Assembly: GCA_937868875.1 (NCBI GenBank)
Contig: CALMNP010000214.1
Coordinates: forward strand, 1 to 36,670
Length of the DNA: 36,670 bases
Source: an uncultured Bacillota bacterium
GTDB lineage: Bacteria > Bacillota > Sulfobacillia > JAMDAP01
Direction: 5' to 3'
The notes beneath the pieces were generated by a model. The model was given only the letters and a program-made list of their open reading frames with translations, made no database searches and had not been told where the DNA came from. The translations under genes and the position numbers were made by a program. Every line of letters begins with the position of its first letter. Positions within the stretch are counted from its first letter, which is position 1. Of this stretch, positions 9,074 to 17,517 are shown in pieces.

Positions 9074-9445
9074 GTGAAGGCCTTGGCCAACCAACAGGCT
9101 CAGGACCTCTGTGAGGTTCGGCATATCCATTCGGACCGGCTGGAGCGGGTGGGTTCCTACCTGGAGGGCGTCCGCGACCTGGCGGCGCTCTTCAAGATTC
9201 TGGCCGACGAGACGCGGCTCAAGATCGTCTACGCCCTCTCTCAGGAGGAACTTTGCGTCTGCGACCTGGCCACGCTCACTGGCCTGACCGTGTCTAACAC
9301 CTCGCATCACCTGCGGCTTCTGCGTGCCCACCGGCTGGTAAAATCGCGCAAGCAGGGGCGCATGGTCTTTTATTCCCTGGACGACGGCCACATGGTCGGC
9401 CTGGTGACCCTCGGCATGGACCACATCAAGGAGGCAGCTCGCTGA
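9074..9445 (+). CDS. ArsR/SmtB family regulator, CadC-like
   Basis: LFKILADETRLKIVYALSQEELCVCDLATLTGLTVSNTSHHLRLLRAHRLVKSRKQGRMVFYSL; ELCVCD metal-site motif; N-terminal CEVRHIHSDR. GTG start. Confidence 0.92.
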   Translation: MKALANQQAQDLCEVRHIHSDRLERVGSYLEGVRDLAALFKILADETRLKIVYALSQEELCVCDLATLTGLTVSNTSHHLRLLRAHRLVKSRKQGRMVFYSLDDGHMVGLVTLGMDHIKEAAR

Positions 9446-11685
9446 TGAGTTCCGAGGACAGCACCGCGCTGGTCGTTTCCCTGGACTACCGCCTGGAAGG
9501 GCTGGACTGCGCCGACTGCGCCCTGCGCCTGGAGCAGCAGCTCCAGCACCTGCCTGGGGTGCAGGATGCCCAGGTGAACTATGGCGCCGGTCGTCTCACC
9601 GTGAAGGGAGCGGCCTTCACCAGCGAGGCGATTAAGACCGCCGTCGCCCGCGCCGGGTACGCAGCCGTGCCGGAACAGCCTGCCGGTCGGCCTGCAGGGG
9701 CTGTGGCTTCGCACCAGATGAGCGAGGACACGGTGCCGGCGTCAGGCGCAGCGGCCAGGGCGGCGCGGCGGCGGAATCTCACCCTGTCCTTCTGGTTCAC
9801 CCGCCCGAAGGGGCGGTCTGCCCTGTCCTCCCTGGCGTTTGCCGCGGCGGGCATGGCCGCCGCCCGCCTGGTTGGGGCGGGATCGGTGTCGGTTGCCCTG
9901 TTCGTGGCCGCCATCGTCCTGGGCGGGTATCCCATCGCCCGCTCCGCCTACTACTCGCTGCGCCGGGGCCTGATGGACATGGATGCCCTCACAGTCCTGG
10001 CGGCCATTGGGGCCGGGGTCCTGGGGCAATGGGAGGAGGGCGCCGCCGTAGTGGCCCTGTTCGCCCTGGGCAATGCCCTGGAGTCCCTGTCGATGGAGAA
10101 GGCGCGCGGCTCCGTTCGGTCGTTGCTGGAGGAGGCCCCGGACGAGGCTCTGGTCATCACGGACCGCGGACCGGAGAAGCGGCCGACGCGCCAGGTGGCC
10201 GTGGGCGACGTCTGCCTGGTGAGGCCGGGACAGCGCGTTCCCGTGGACGGGCAGGTGCTGGCGGGGCGGTCCGCGGTGAACGAAGCCTCGGTCACGGGCG
10301 AGGCGGTGCCGGCCGACAAAGAGCCGAACAGCCCCGTTTACGCCGGCACCATCAACACCTTCGGCGCCCTGGAAGTGAGGGCCACGCGAGCCTCGGGCGA
10401 CAGTACCCTGGCCCGCATCGTGCGCCTGGTAGAGCAGTCTCAGGCGGCCAGGGCGCCTTCGGAGCGGTTTGTGTCCCGCTTCGCCCGCATCTACACGCCG
10501 GCGGTCATCGCCCTGGCGGCCCTGCTGGCCGTGGTGCCGCCCCTTTTCGTCGGTCACTTCAGCAGCTGGTTCTACCGGGCCCTGGGCCTGCTGATCGTGG
10601 CCTGCCCCTGCGCCCTGGTCATCTCCACGCCGGTGACCGTGGTCTCGGCCCTGGGCAACGCGGCACGGCACGGTGTCCTCATCAAGGGCGGCGCCCACCT
10701 GGAACGGCTGGGACAGGTGACCCACCTGGCCCTGGACAAGACCGGCACCTTGACCCAGGGCCGGCCGGTTGTGGCCGACGCTGTTGCAGCCTCCGGCTGG
10801 ACGACGGAGCAGGTGCTGGCCCTGGCGGCCTCGCTGGAGCGCCCCTCGGAACACCCGCTGGCCCGGGCGGTGGTGGAGCGGGCGGAACGTGAGGGGGCGC
10901 CGCTGCAGGTCGTTGATGATTTTCAGGCCCTACCCGGCAAAGGCGCCCTGGGCCGGCTGGAGGGGAGGCTCTGCCGCATCGGGAGCCCGGCGTTCCAGCG
11001 GGAAGCCCTGGGGCTGGCGGCGTTGCCTGCGCTGGCGGCTGAAGCCGAAGCTCTGGAGGGGCAGGGCAAGACTGTGCTCGCTCTGACGGCGGAGGAGGAA
11101 GTGGTGGGCCTGCTGGCCCTCGCCGACCGGCTGCGGCCGGAGGCCCGCGGCCTGGTGCAGAGGCTCCATCAGGCGGGAGTCAGGCAACTGGTGCTGCTCA
11201 CGGGCGACAACCCGCGAGCGGCCGAGACCGCCGCCCGCGAGGCGGGCCTGGACCGGGTCAGGGCCCGGCTGCTGCCGGAGGACAAGGCAAAGGCCGTCGA
11301 GGACCTGCGAAGGGATGGCGTCGTGGCCATGGTCGGCGACGGCATCAACGACGCCCCGGCGCTGGCTGCCGCTGACGTCGGCGTGGCCATGGGCGGGGCC
11401 GGCAGCGACACGGCCCTGGAAGTGGCGGACGTGGTACTGATGGGCGACGACCTGACGCGTCTCCCCTACGCCGTGCGCCTGGGGCGGCTGGGCCTGGCCA
11501 CCATCCGTCAGAACGTGACCATCGCCCTGGCCATCAAACTGCTGGCCCTGCTGCTCATCATCCCCGGCTGGCTGAACCTCTGGATGGCGGTGTTTGCCGA
11601 CAGCGGCGCCTCCCTGATCGTCATCGCCAACGGCATGCGGTTGCTGGCCGTGAAGGACGAGGGCGTCCGGGCGGTGGCCAGGTGA
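9445..11685 (+). CDS. Heavy-metal translocating P1B-type ATPase (CadA/ZntA-like, Zn/Cd/Pb/Co)
   Basis: N-terminal HMA-like domain with DCADC, CPCALVISTPVTV transmembrane CPC motif, DKTGTLT, HPLARA, VAMVGDGINDAPALAAADVGVAMG. Confidence 0.94.
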   Translation: MSSEDSTALVVSLDYRLEGLDCADCALRLEQQLQHLPGVQDAQVNYGAGRLTVKGAAFTSEAIKTAVARAGYAAVPEQPAGRPAGAVASHQMSEDTVPASGAAARAARRRNLTLSFWFTRPKGRSALSSLAFAAAGMAAARLVGAGSVSVALFVAAIVLGGYPIARSAYYSLRRGLMDMDALTVLAAIGAGVLGQWEEGAAVVALFALGNALESLSMEKARGSVRSLLEEAPDEALVITDRGPEKRPTRQVAVGDVCLVRPGQRVPVDGQVLAGRSAVNEASVTGEAVPADKEPNSPVYAGTINTFGALEVRATRASGDSTLARIVRLVEQSQAARAPSERFVSRFARIYTPAVIALAALLAVVPPLFVGHFSSWFYRALGLLIVACPCALVISTPVTVVSALGNAARHGVLIKGGAHLERLGQVTHLALDKTGTLTQGRPVVADAVAASGWTTEQVLALAASLERPSEHPLARAVVERAEREGAPLQVVDDFQALPGKGALGRLEGRLCRIGSPAFQREALGLAALPALAAEAEALEGQGKTVLALTAEEEVVGLLALADRLRPEARGLVQRLHQAGVRQLVLLTGDNPRAAETAAREAGLDRVRARLLPEDKAKAVEDLRRDGVVAMVGDGINDAPALAAADVGVAMGGAGSDTALEVADVVLMGDDLTRLPYAVRLGRLGLATIRQNVTIALAIKLLALLLIIPGWLNLWMAVFADSGASLIVIANGMRLLAVKDEGVRAVAR

Positions 11686-15988: not shown

Positions 15989-16312
15989 CTAGGGGTGGCG
16001 TTCCTCCCCCAGGCGCCGGTTCAGGCCGGTCAGGTAGGCCTGGAGAGTCTCCTGGTTCAGCGTGTAGTACACCCAGCGTCCTCGCTTCTGCTCCTCAACC
16101 AGGCCGGCCTCTCGCAAAAGCTTCATGTGGTAGGCCAGACGCGACTGGCCCATGCTCTCCATCATCGGCAGGACGTCGCAGGCGCAGATGCCCTGTGGTA
16201 CGTTGGGGTTGGGGGGTGAGCAGCAGGCCCTGTCGCGTCCTGCTGCCAGCCGGTCCAGGATGGCCAGTCGAACCGGGTCCGCAAGGGCGGCTGAAACCTT
16301 CAGCAGGTCCAT
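15989..16312 (-). CDS. ArsR family regulator (arsenic-type candidate)
   Basis: MDLLKVSAALADPVRLAILDRLAAGRDRACCSPPN...GICACDVLPMMESMGQSRLAYHMKLLREAGLVEEQKRGRWVYYTLN; winged helix with Cys-rich CC..CAC segment. Start set at ATG 16312, not the 16468 ORF-track start. Confidence 0.9.
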   Translation of the reverse strand: MDLLKVSAALADPVRLAILDRLAAGRDRACCSPPNPNVPQGICACDVLPMMESMGQSRLAYHMKLLREAGLVEEQKRGRWVYYTLNQETLQAYLTGLNRRLGEERHP

Positions 16313-16378
16313 GGGGCACCTCCCCTCCCAGTCTGACAGCTCCAGTATACAACAGAGCAAGGAAAGTTGATGGGTCTG

Positions 16379-16408
16379 TTGACGTATCAGGAAATCTTGT
16401 GGTAATGT
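16379..16408 (+). promoter_or_regulatory. Candidate promoter for the Cys-rich mini-ORF
   Basis: TTGACG (16379-16384), 18 bp spacer, TAATGT (16403-16408). Confidence 0.5.
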
Positions 16409-16423
16409 GGAGCCGCAGGAACA

Positions 16424-16441
16424 TATCAACATTTGTTGATA
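16424..16441. promoter_or_regulatory. Candidate ArsR operator
   Basis: Perfect palindrome TATCAACA-TT-TGTTGATA between divergent arsR-like gene and mini-ORF. Confidence 0.7.
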
Positions 16442-16460
16442 AGAAGGGGGGGCAACGACC

Positions 16461-16544
16461 ATGATCAAGCTGCGGGTGTTCAGTAAGGTGGATGGCCCGT
16501 GCTGCGGCGGCTGCTGCGGCGGTTCCGGCGGGGGCTGCTGCTAG
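16461..16544 (+). CDS. Cys-rich 27-aa mini-protein MIKLRVFSKVDGPCCGGCCGGSGGGCC (candidate metalloid/metal-binding peptide)
   Basis: ATG 16461, TAG 16542-16544; AAGGGGG SD-like sequence upstream; promoter-like boxes and palindromic operator upstream, strong hairpin downstream; three CC pairs in 14 residues. Below the ORF-track length cutoff. Confidence 0.65.
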   Translation: MIKLRVFSKVDGPCCGGCCGGSGGGCC

Positions 16545-16555
16545 CCCCGGCGCGC

Positions 16556-16598
16556 ACAGACGCCCCACCCTGCGATTGAGGGTGGGGCGTCTGTCTTC
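16556..16598. terminator. Strong hairpin terminator, possibly bidirectional (mini-ORF / gnd operon)
   Basis: 16-bp perfect stem ACAGACGCCCCACCCT (16556-16571), loop GCGATTG, AGGGTGGGGCGTCTGT (16579-16594). Confidence 0.75.
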
Positions 16599-16614: not shown

Positions 16615-17517
16615 CTATTTCCTGTCCTGGACCTCGTGGCCGCCGAACTCCCGGCGCAGGGCGGCGACCACCTTGCCCGCAAAGGTGTCGGGCTGGCGGG
16701 ACCGCAGCCGCATCATGTAGGAGTTGGCAATGGCCGTAAAGGGCACGCCGTGCTCCCACGCCTCCTGGATGGCCCAGGAGCCCGTCGAGCCGCCCCCCAC
16801 CGAGCCGGTGATGTTGTCCAGCCTGGGGTCATGACGGAAGGCCCGGACCGCCAGTTCCATCAGCCAGGAGCGGATGACGCTGCCCTGGTTCCAGAGGTGG
16901 GCAACCTGGGGAAGGTCCAGACGGAAGGGTCCGGACTCCAGCAGTTCAAAGCCCTCGCCGATGGCCTCCAGCATGCCGTACTCAATGGCGTTGTGCACCA
17001 TTTTCACGAAGTGGCCGGCACCGCTGGGGCCAACGTGGGCGTAGCCCTCCTGGCGCGCCACGGCGCGGAAGAGCGGTTCGGCCAGGGCAAAGGCCTCGGG
17101 CCGCCCGCCCACCATAAGGCACAGGCCGTCCCGCGCTCCTTCCAAACCGCCGCTGGAGCCGCAGTCCAGGAAATCGATCCCCTTGGCCGCTAGGTCCCCA
17201 GCGCGGCGCATGGAGTCACGGTAGAAGGAGTTGCCGCCGTCGATGATCACGTCGCCGGAGCTCAACTCGGGCTCAAGGTCCGCCAGCACGCGGTCGACCG
17301 GTTCGCCCTGGGGCACCATGATCCAGATGATGCGCGGCGGCGTGAGCTGGCGCGCCAGGTCGGCCGGCGAGGAAGCGGGGAACACGCCGTCTCCGGCGAT
17401 GTCCCGCACGGCGGCCTGGTTCAGGTCGAACACGACGGCTTCGCCGCCGGCGGCCCGCAGGTTGCGGACCAGGTTCCCGCCCATGCGGCCCAGCCCAATG
17501 ATTCCGTAGCGTGTCAT
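16615..17517 (-). CDS. gnd: 6-phosphogluconate dehydrogenase, short (YqeC-like, decarboxylating) form
   Basis: YGIIGLGRMGGNLVRNL, VIIDGGNSFYRDS, FLDCGSSGG, GPSGAGHFVKMVHNAIEYGMLEAIGEGFELL. Confidence 0.93.
   Translation of the reverse strand: MTRYGIIGLGRMGGNLVRNLRAAGGEAVVFDLNQAAVRDIAGDGVFPASSPADLARQLTPPRIIWIMVPQGEPVDRVLADLEPELSSGDVIIDGGNSFYRDSMRRAGDLAAKGIDFLDCGSSGGLEGARDGLCLMVGGRPEAFALAEPLFRAVARQEGYAHVGPSGAGHFVKMVHNAIEYGMLEAIGEGFELLESGPFRLDLPQVAHLWNQGSVIRSWLMELAVRAFRHDPRLDNITGSVGGGSTGSWAIQEAWEHGVPFTAIANSYMMRLRSRQPDTFAGKVVAALRREFGGHEVQDRK

Follow-up and report, generated by a model that had tools for sequence, protein, structure and literature searches.

A divergent ArsR-type repressor and a 27-residue cysteine-rich protein that may trap arsenite in the cell

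Genes and signals at the mini-gene locus

The window, which is the whole 36,670-nt stretch of DNA analysed here, contains a very short gene divergent from an arsR gene. As an earlier note on this DNA had claimed, an ORF running from ATG to TAG encodes 27 amino acids with three vicinal cysteine (CC) pairs, and it was recovered exactly at 16461-16544 on the plus strand. The mini-gene is flanked by arsR, by cydAB on the far side of arsR and by a 6-phosphogluconate-dehydrogenase (6PGD)-like gene. The features of the locus are the following.

15989-16312, minus strand: ArsR-family repressor with CC...CxC cysteines, divergent from the mini-gene (Pfam HTH_20, NCBIfam HTH_metalloreg; alignment and tree)
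16344-16349, minus strand: putative arsR -10, TATACT (read by eye from the sequence)
16356-16371, no strand: second operator-like site AGCAAGGAAAGTTGAT, one mismatch, on the arsR side (core scan)
16379-16384, plus strand: putative mini-gene -35, TTGACG (read by eye from the sequence; not reported by the automatic scan)
16403-16408, plus strand: putative weak mini-gene -10, TAATGT, 18 bp past the -35 (read by eye from the sequence)
16425-16440, no strand: ArsR core operator ATCAACATTTGTTGAT within the full palindrome 16424-16441 (perfect ATCAA-N6-TTGAT match; extended palindrome single in the genome)
16446-16452, plus strand: run of seven G, a weak Shine-Dalgarno sequence, 8 nt upstream of the ATG
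16461-16544, plus strand: gene for the 27-aa CC-rich mini-protein MIKLRVFSKVDGPCCGGCCGGSGGGCC, stop codon TAG (sequence, fixed N-terminus, neighbour-like codon use, sole CCGGCC-coding site of the genome)
16556-16594, plus strand: perfect 16-bp hairpin with a 7-nt loop, 12 nt past the stop codon, boundary or terminator-like
16615-17517, minus strand: 6PGD-like gene, convergent on the mini-gene

The mini-ORF reads ATGATCAAG...TGCTGCTAG, and its product is laid out as CC-GG-CC-GG-SGGG-CC, with a cysteine content of 22%. The N-terminus of the mini-protein is fixed by an in-frame TAA six codons before the ATG (16440-16442), with no start codon in the gap. The GC content at third codon positions (89%) and the choice of codons for cysteine (TGC in 6/6) and glycine (GGC in 6/8) fit the neighbouring genes. 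The CCGGCC codon pattern has a single site in the host genome, which is the mini-ORF itself. Searching a 399-genome sample of the phylum for this pattern revealed no comparable mini-gene among the matches inspected (most, not all, of the total), which were chance frames.

The 8-2-8 palindrome described earlier is present at 16424-16441 (TATCAACA-TT-TGTTGATA, that is, TATCAACATTTGTTGATA) and includes the core operator. ATCAA-N6-TTGAT has been described as the consensus core bound by ArsR proteins and was footprinted in Synechocystis (PMC9137774; PMC4585019). Allowing up to three mismatches, a scan for the 18-bp palindrome returned this copy alone, both from the window (0 expected) and from the complete 3.09-Mb assembly. 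The looser core was scanned across the 36.7-kb window, where within one mismatch it gave a second site only at 16356-16371 (0.17 expected). Both core sites fall in the 148-bp intergenic region between arsR and the mini-gene, the perfect one on the mini-gene side and the other by the putative arsR -10. The proposal of a self-contained gene, probably controlled by ArsR, was supported by an operator that equals the published consensus and by an extended palindrome that is single in the genome. We regard the gene and its regulation as well supported.

The remaining signals are weaker. The -35/-10-like pair claimed for the mini-gene can be read by eye and is moderate, with a weak -10, but the automatic promoter scan did not back it: the lone match of that scan overlaps the mini-gene start codon. 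The sequence TTGACG[T/C]ATCA that begins at the -35 is common to the promoters of a mini-gene in genome G078 and of arsM in genome G043, both described below. The G-run was found as stated and would act as a weak Shine-Dalgarno sequence. The downstream hairpin is a perfect stem as claimed, but it is not followed by the T-run of a canonical intrinsic terminator; for that reason, and because it faces the convergent 6PGD-like gene, we term it a boundary hairpin and not a proven terminator. The RNA of the mini-gene region is predicted to fold strongly (z -4.6), with much of the energy contributed by the operator palindrome and by the hairpin past the stop codon, and an Rfam search of the region gave no real match.

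The divergent ArsR and the arsenic genes of its host

The repressor encoded at 15989-16312 has 107 aa and scored above the cut-offs of PF12840 and NF033788, placing it among winged-helix ArsR/SmtB proteins; its cysteines lie in RACCSP...ICACDV. Relatives were drawn from 154 genomes of the class and 399 of the phylum. CxC is kept in almost all of 35 aligned rows (as CxCD/E, with CxCH in two rows) and CC in most. A scan of a contig collection with this ArsR as query returned one distant match only. The relatives, including those on plasmid records, are flanked by arsM, acr3, arsC, arsH or ArsP, and ATCAA-N6-TTGAT commonly stands just upstream of the start codon. A related arsR in G043 is divergent from arsM across ATCAACGGAAGTTGAT, which is the layout of the window with arsM where the mini-gene stands. 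These ars-gene neighbours and the shared operator indicate that the window ArsR belongs to an arsenite-type subfamily, and by its domain, operator and conserved thiolate site it is predicted to respond to As(III). A few relatives precede genes with the HgcA hallmark NVWCAAGK, so the metal specificity of the window ArsR is something we infer. The single same-order genome carries no copy of this ArsR.

We then considered which other arsenic genes the host possesses. Its assembly is 97% complete. Profile searches for Acr3 (TIGR00832) and ArsB (PF02040) found nothing in this genome, and control genomes were positive. Sequence searches for ArsM and ArsP yielded only generic methyltransferases at 29-36% identity, and none of the host methyltransferase matches (0/8) carried the ISNCVINL motif of the relatives' ArsM. 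Within the scope of this search, which covered Acr3, ArsB, ArsP and ArsM, the host has no recognised arsenite pump or methylase. Related repressors control arsM, acr3, arsC or arsP, and with Acr3, ArsB, ArsP and ArsM not found genome-wide, the earlier suggestion that the mini-gene is the main local target of this ArsR gained support.

CC-rich proteins beside related repressors

The mini-peptide matched only itself in its own genome, gave noise in 60 relatives and had no match in plasmids and phages. In viral contigs, a degenerate peptide pattern had no match and a pattern joining the operator to MI[KR]L gave no CC-rich match. Pfam (E<=10) and NCBIfam searches found no match either, including to the bacterial metallothionein families (SmtA/BmtA/MymT). 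Conservation of the ORF at related arsR loci, which the earlier note had named beforehand as a point on which its reading would stand or fall, gave a divided result: no homologue of the peptide itself was found, but comparable CC-rich mini-proteins do occur there.

These came from a scan in which an ORF counted if it encoded 20-90 aa, had three or more CC pairs and lay within ~1.5 kb of an ArsR, with loci trimmed to about 3.3 kb. Such an ORF was present in 5/14 class loci of the ArsR subfamily and in 0/63 control loci (Fisher p = 1e-4), a comparison made on a hypothesis that arose after some of the tested loci had been viewed. Leaving out the window gave 4/13 against the same controls (p = 6e-4), and additionally restricting the count to one locus per genome gave 3/10 (p = 2e-3). 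The control loci have broadly similar GC content and include other ArsR-type loci as well as loci chosen for weak similarity to a Cys-rich peptide, which makes the test conservative. Across all examined DNA, loci selected for CCGGCC excepted, every ORF within these limits of size and CC content lay on a stretch carrying this ArsR subfamily. The new finding is the repeated presence, within one class, of very small CC-rich proteins with no obvious mutual kinship next to ArsRs of this subfamily.

The members that we propose for this set are separate genes in the window, G078 and G085, and ArsR tails in G147. In G078 (locus L043), a 62-aa protein, MIRLIQSKSGCGCGGTLEPVEEAKAVDPSETVIQTTSRPADSTDGGCCGGDGSCCGGDGTCC (MIRLIQSKSGCGCGG...CCGGDGSCCGGDGTCC), is encoded from 7590 to 7405 on the minus strand. 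The perfect operator ATCAATCTCAGTTGAT lies about 14 nt upstream of its ATG and TTGACG-18-TATAAT further upstream; the gene is convergent on an arsR that is itself divergent from an ArsP permease. In G085 (L045), a 43-aa protein, MDQAQKDPCCCCCCGKKMGSAEDAASSGDTNQAPSECCSDCCD (MDQAQKDPCCCCCCGKK...CCSDCCD), is likewise convergent to arsR, with AGGAGG upstream and a T-tailed terminator downstream. The ArsRs of these two genomes, which come from different families, are sisters with 100/99 support; between their mini-genes the convergent position and the Cys clusters are kept and the linker is changed.

Genome G147 encodes two ArsRs (L160, on G147:C1, 6076-6687, and L161, 5516-6169), each extended in frame at the C-terminus by a CC-rich tail such as GCCGEESCCGDTPEQATACCEEPACCDDCC. 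SD-like sequence and an ATG occur at the tail junctions, so an internal start of a separate mini-protein is possible. The ArsR at L160 is also preceded by an ORF ending in CCNACC, behind two operators. G074 has an ArsR that groups in the tree with that of the window (97/94) and ends in a Cys-rich tail, and the same genome encodes a 113-aa CC-rich protein upstream of an ArsP permease. The window mini-protein is the shortest version among the CC-rich set. Among the three ArsRs that lie closest to the window's own in the tree, G043 C44 and G024 C96 lack a CC-rich protein nearby within the stretch examined.

The combination of operator, ATG and CC occurs in 4/154 class genomes, with an in-frame CC-rich mini-ORF only in that of the window. 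Phylum-wide, the matches to this combination were mostly AT-rich chance matches, and the loci inspected, a part of them, held no new mini-gene. The best pair, window against G078, had a local alignment score reached by 0.05% of shuffles (about 1 in 2000), which is because the two peptides share CCGG repeats. A class-wide search with the G078 peptide returned only itself above noise. Judged by sequence, the mini-proteins at related loci are thus not demonstrably homologous to each other. We also considered whether the ORF is a remnant of an arsM N-terminus. The ArsM proteins of relatives do start with CCGG-type motifs, yet the hairpin begins 12 nt past the stop codon and nothing of arsM fits in between, so we rejected this origin.

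A proposed role in arsenite sequestration

Taking these data together, the reading that we consider probable is a monocistronic mini-gene repressed by the divergent ArsR and encoding an As(III)-inducible, metallothionein-like scavenging peptide. ArsR would repress from 16425-16440. The CC...CxC cysteines of ArsR would sense As(III) entering the cell, or perhaps Sb(III) or some other thiophilic ion; the repressor would then leave ATCAACATTTGTTGAT and the peptide would be made. With its flexible Gly/Ser backbone and three vicinal Cys pairs, the peptide may hold the metalloid through several thiolates and so lower the pool of free arsenite, acting as a minimal scavenger in a cell without a recognised arsenite pump or methylase. 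Against this reading, no close relative carries the peptide, the -10 and Shine-Dalgarno sequences are weak, and TGCTGC/GGCGGC-rich DNA in a GC-rich genome can give Cys/Gly runs by chance.

Thiolates are known arsenite ligands in ArsR, ArsD and ArsM, and the motif CCXXCC has been engineered for binding biarsenical dyes. The window's CCGGCC fits this tetracysteine pattern, in which As(III) is held by vicinal thiol pairs, making As(III)-binding chemistry plausible for the mini-peptide. The tag is artificial and was made for biarsenical dyes, whereas CCGGCC is natural and only a candidate for binding arsenite.

The arrangement resembles the SmtB-SmtA and AzuR-NmtA systems, in which an ArsR/SmtB repressor controls a bacterial metallothionein (PMC8790569): the target is a small Cys-rich protein and an inverted-repeat operator lies upstream of the small gene. 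It differs in its repressor, which is As(III)-type with CC...CxC cysteines, and in its operator, ATCAAN6TTGAT rather than 12-2-12. The peptide also departs from SmtA-type metallothioneins in its 27-aa length, paired cysteines, absence of His and lack of a family match. The SmtB/SmtA gene pair is likewise divergent. With ars operons (arsM, acr3, arsC, arsP) the locus shares the regulator subfamily and the operator; unlike them, the gene regulated here encodes only a mini-protein, and the genome searches turned up neither a pump nor a methylase.

An alternative is that the peptide is a metallochaperone that passes As(III) to an exporter, an enzyme or ArsR, as ArsD does to ArsA. Favouring it, the CC-rich proteins of G074 and G078 lie near ArsP permeases, and the short N-terminal strand followed by vicinal Cys recalls ArsD. 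The earlier note had gone further and linked the peptide to ArsD, a link that did not survive. ArsD (PF06953) is a thioredoxin-like fold of about 120 aa, a size at which 27 residues make the fold impossible and leave no room for a folded docking surface; neither Pfam nor NCBIfam gave a match, and we rejected membership of the family. The shared outline M-x-x-L-x-V-F...CC is generic to any protein that starts with a beta strand and cysteines. The As(III) site of ArsD is CC-x4-C near the N-terminus, and the window peptide has two CC pairs after a short strand at another spacing, CC-GG-CC. The host yielded no Acr3, ArsB or ArsP that could receive arsenite. Storage is the better fit to a genome in which neither pump nor methylase was found; the chaperone reading still stands, given the ArsP-linked CC-rich members elsewhere, but is unlikely.

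It is also rather unlikely that the sensed ion is not arsenic at all but Sb, Hg, Cd, Cu or redox stress, with the peptide serving as a general thiol buffer. Vicinal Cys bind many soft ions, some relatives of the ArsR precede HgcA-hallmark genes, and a redox-responsive ArsR has been reported from Paracoccus (PMC9137774). However, the neighbours of the subfamily are mostly arsenic genes, and the sensor motif is an arsenite-type CxC.

The ORF might also be untranslated, the locus producing a short ArsR-controlled RNA or holding a site that autoregulates arsR only, with the Cys/Gly run a chance reading of TGCTGCGGCGGC repeats. The singleton sequence, the repetitive GC-rich DNA, the strong RNA fold and the weak Shine-Dalgarno sequence are compatible with this view. 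We find it improbable, since the in-frame ATG stands behind a perfect operator in the sole CCGGCC-coding site of the genome, independent CC-rich mini-genes occur at sister loci (that of G085 with AGGAGG and a terminator), no Rfam match was found, and the fold energy comes largely from the hairpin and palindrome. The earlier suggestion of a RiPP-like Cys-rich precursor, prompted by a short, Gly/Cys-rich, operon-free ORF, is very unlikely because no modification enzyme is adjacent, radical-SAM, YcaO, lanthipeptide and export genes all being unseen among the neighbours.

On the scavenger reading, the mini-protein would be one of a loose, fast-diverging set of CC-pair-rich proteins and tails found alongside this ArsR subfamily within the class. 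We tentatively propose, with a little less than even confidence, that they form a new class of ArsR-controlled arsenite-sequestering mini-proteins, 27-113 aa long, with vicinal Cys pairs, fast-diverging and sometimes fused to ArsR; in the organism of the window they would replace efflux and methylation as the sole recognisable ars-regulated response, and CCGGCC would share the chemistry of the biarsenical tag. A 2025 paper stated that no gene for intracellular arsenic sequestration was known within the ars operon (PMC12093948); the mini-gene, with its vicinal Cys pairs and probable ArsR control, is a candidate to fill that gap. The candidate is directly and cheaply testable, being short enough to synthesise and titrate. 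That such proteins recur next to ArsRs of a single subfamily suggests that gene-calling, which often drops such short ORFs, misses part of the defence against metalloids. The peptides could also give sensors and remediation a natural source of minimal sequences that bind arsenite.

Several further observations were made at these and other loci. M28-family peptidase genes lie directly 3' of Cys-tailed ArsRs in two families (L041 7688-9139 and L160 6758-7990). On the Thermus oshimai plasmid pTHEOS01 (L176 3344-3553), a small ORF just past such an ArsR has the Cys-rich tail ACACGVQAACCEA, and another in G453 (L107, about +403 to +585 from the arsR match) has the Cys-rich tail ATCCDGGYCAG. A 473-aa fusion of an ArsM-like methyltransferase and a GNAT acetyltransferase in G043:C8 (L046 5296-6717) carries CCGG repeats between its domains. 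ArsR-family genes lie directly upstream of genes with NVWCAAGK, the HgcA hallmark of mercury methylation, at L169 1560-2924 (G001:C9) and L110 404-1405; G001 is the sole same-order relative of the window's genome, and a link between ArsR and hgcAB has been reported (PMC7438021). At 9074-11685 the window also encodes a CadC/CmtR-CadA-like pair that has no connection with the mini-gene: a second ArsR (ELCVCDLATL type) and, after it, a heavy-metal P-type ATPase.
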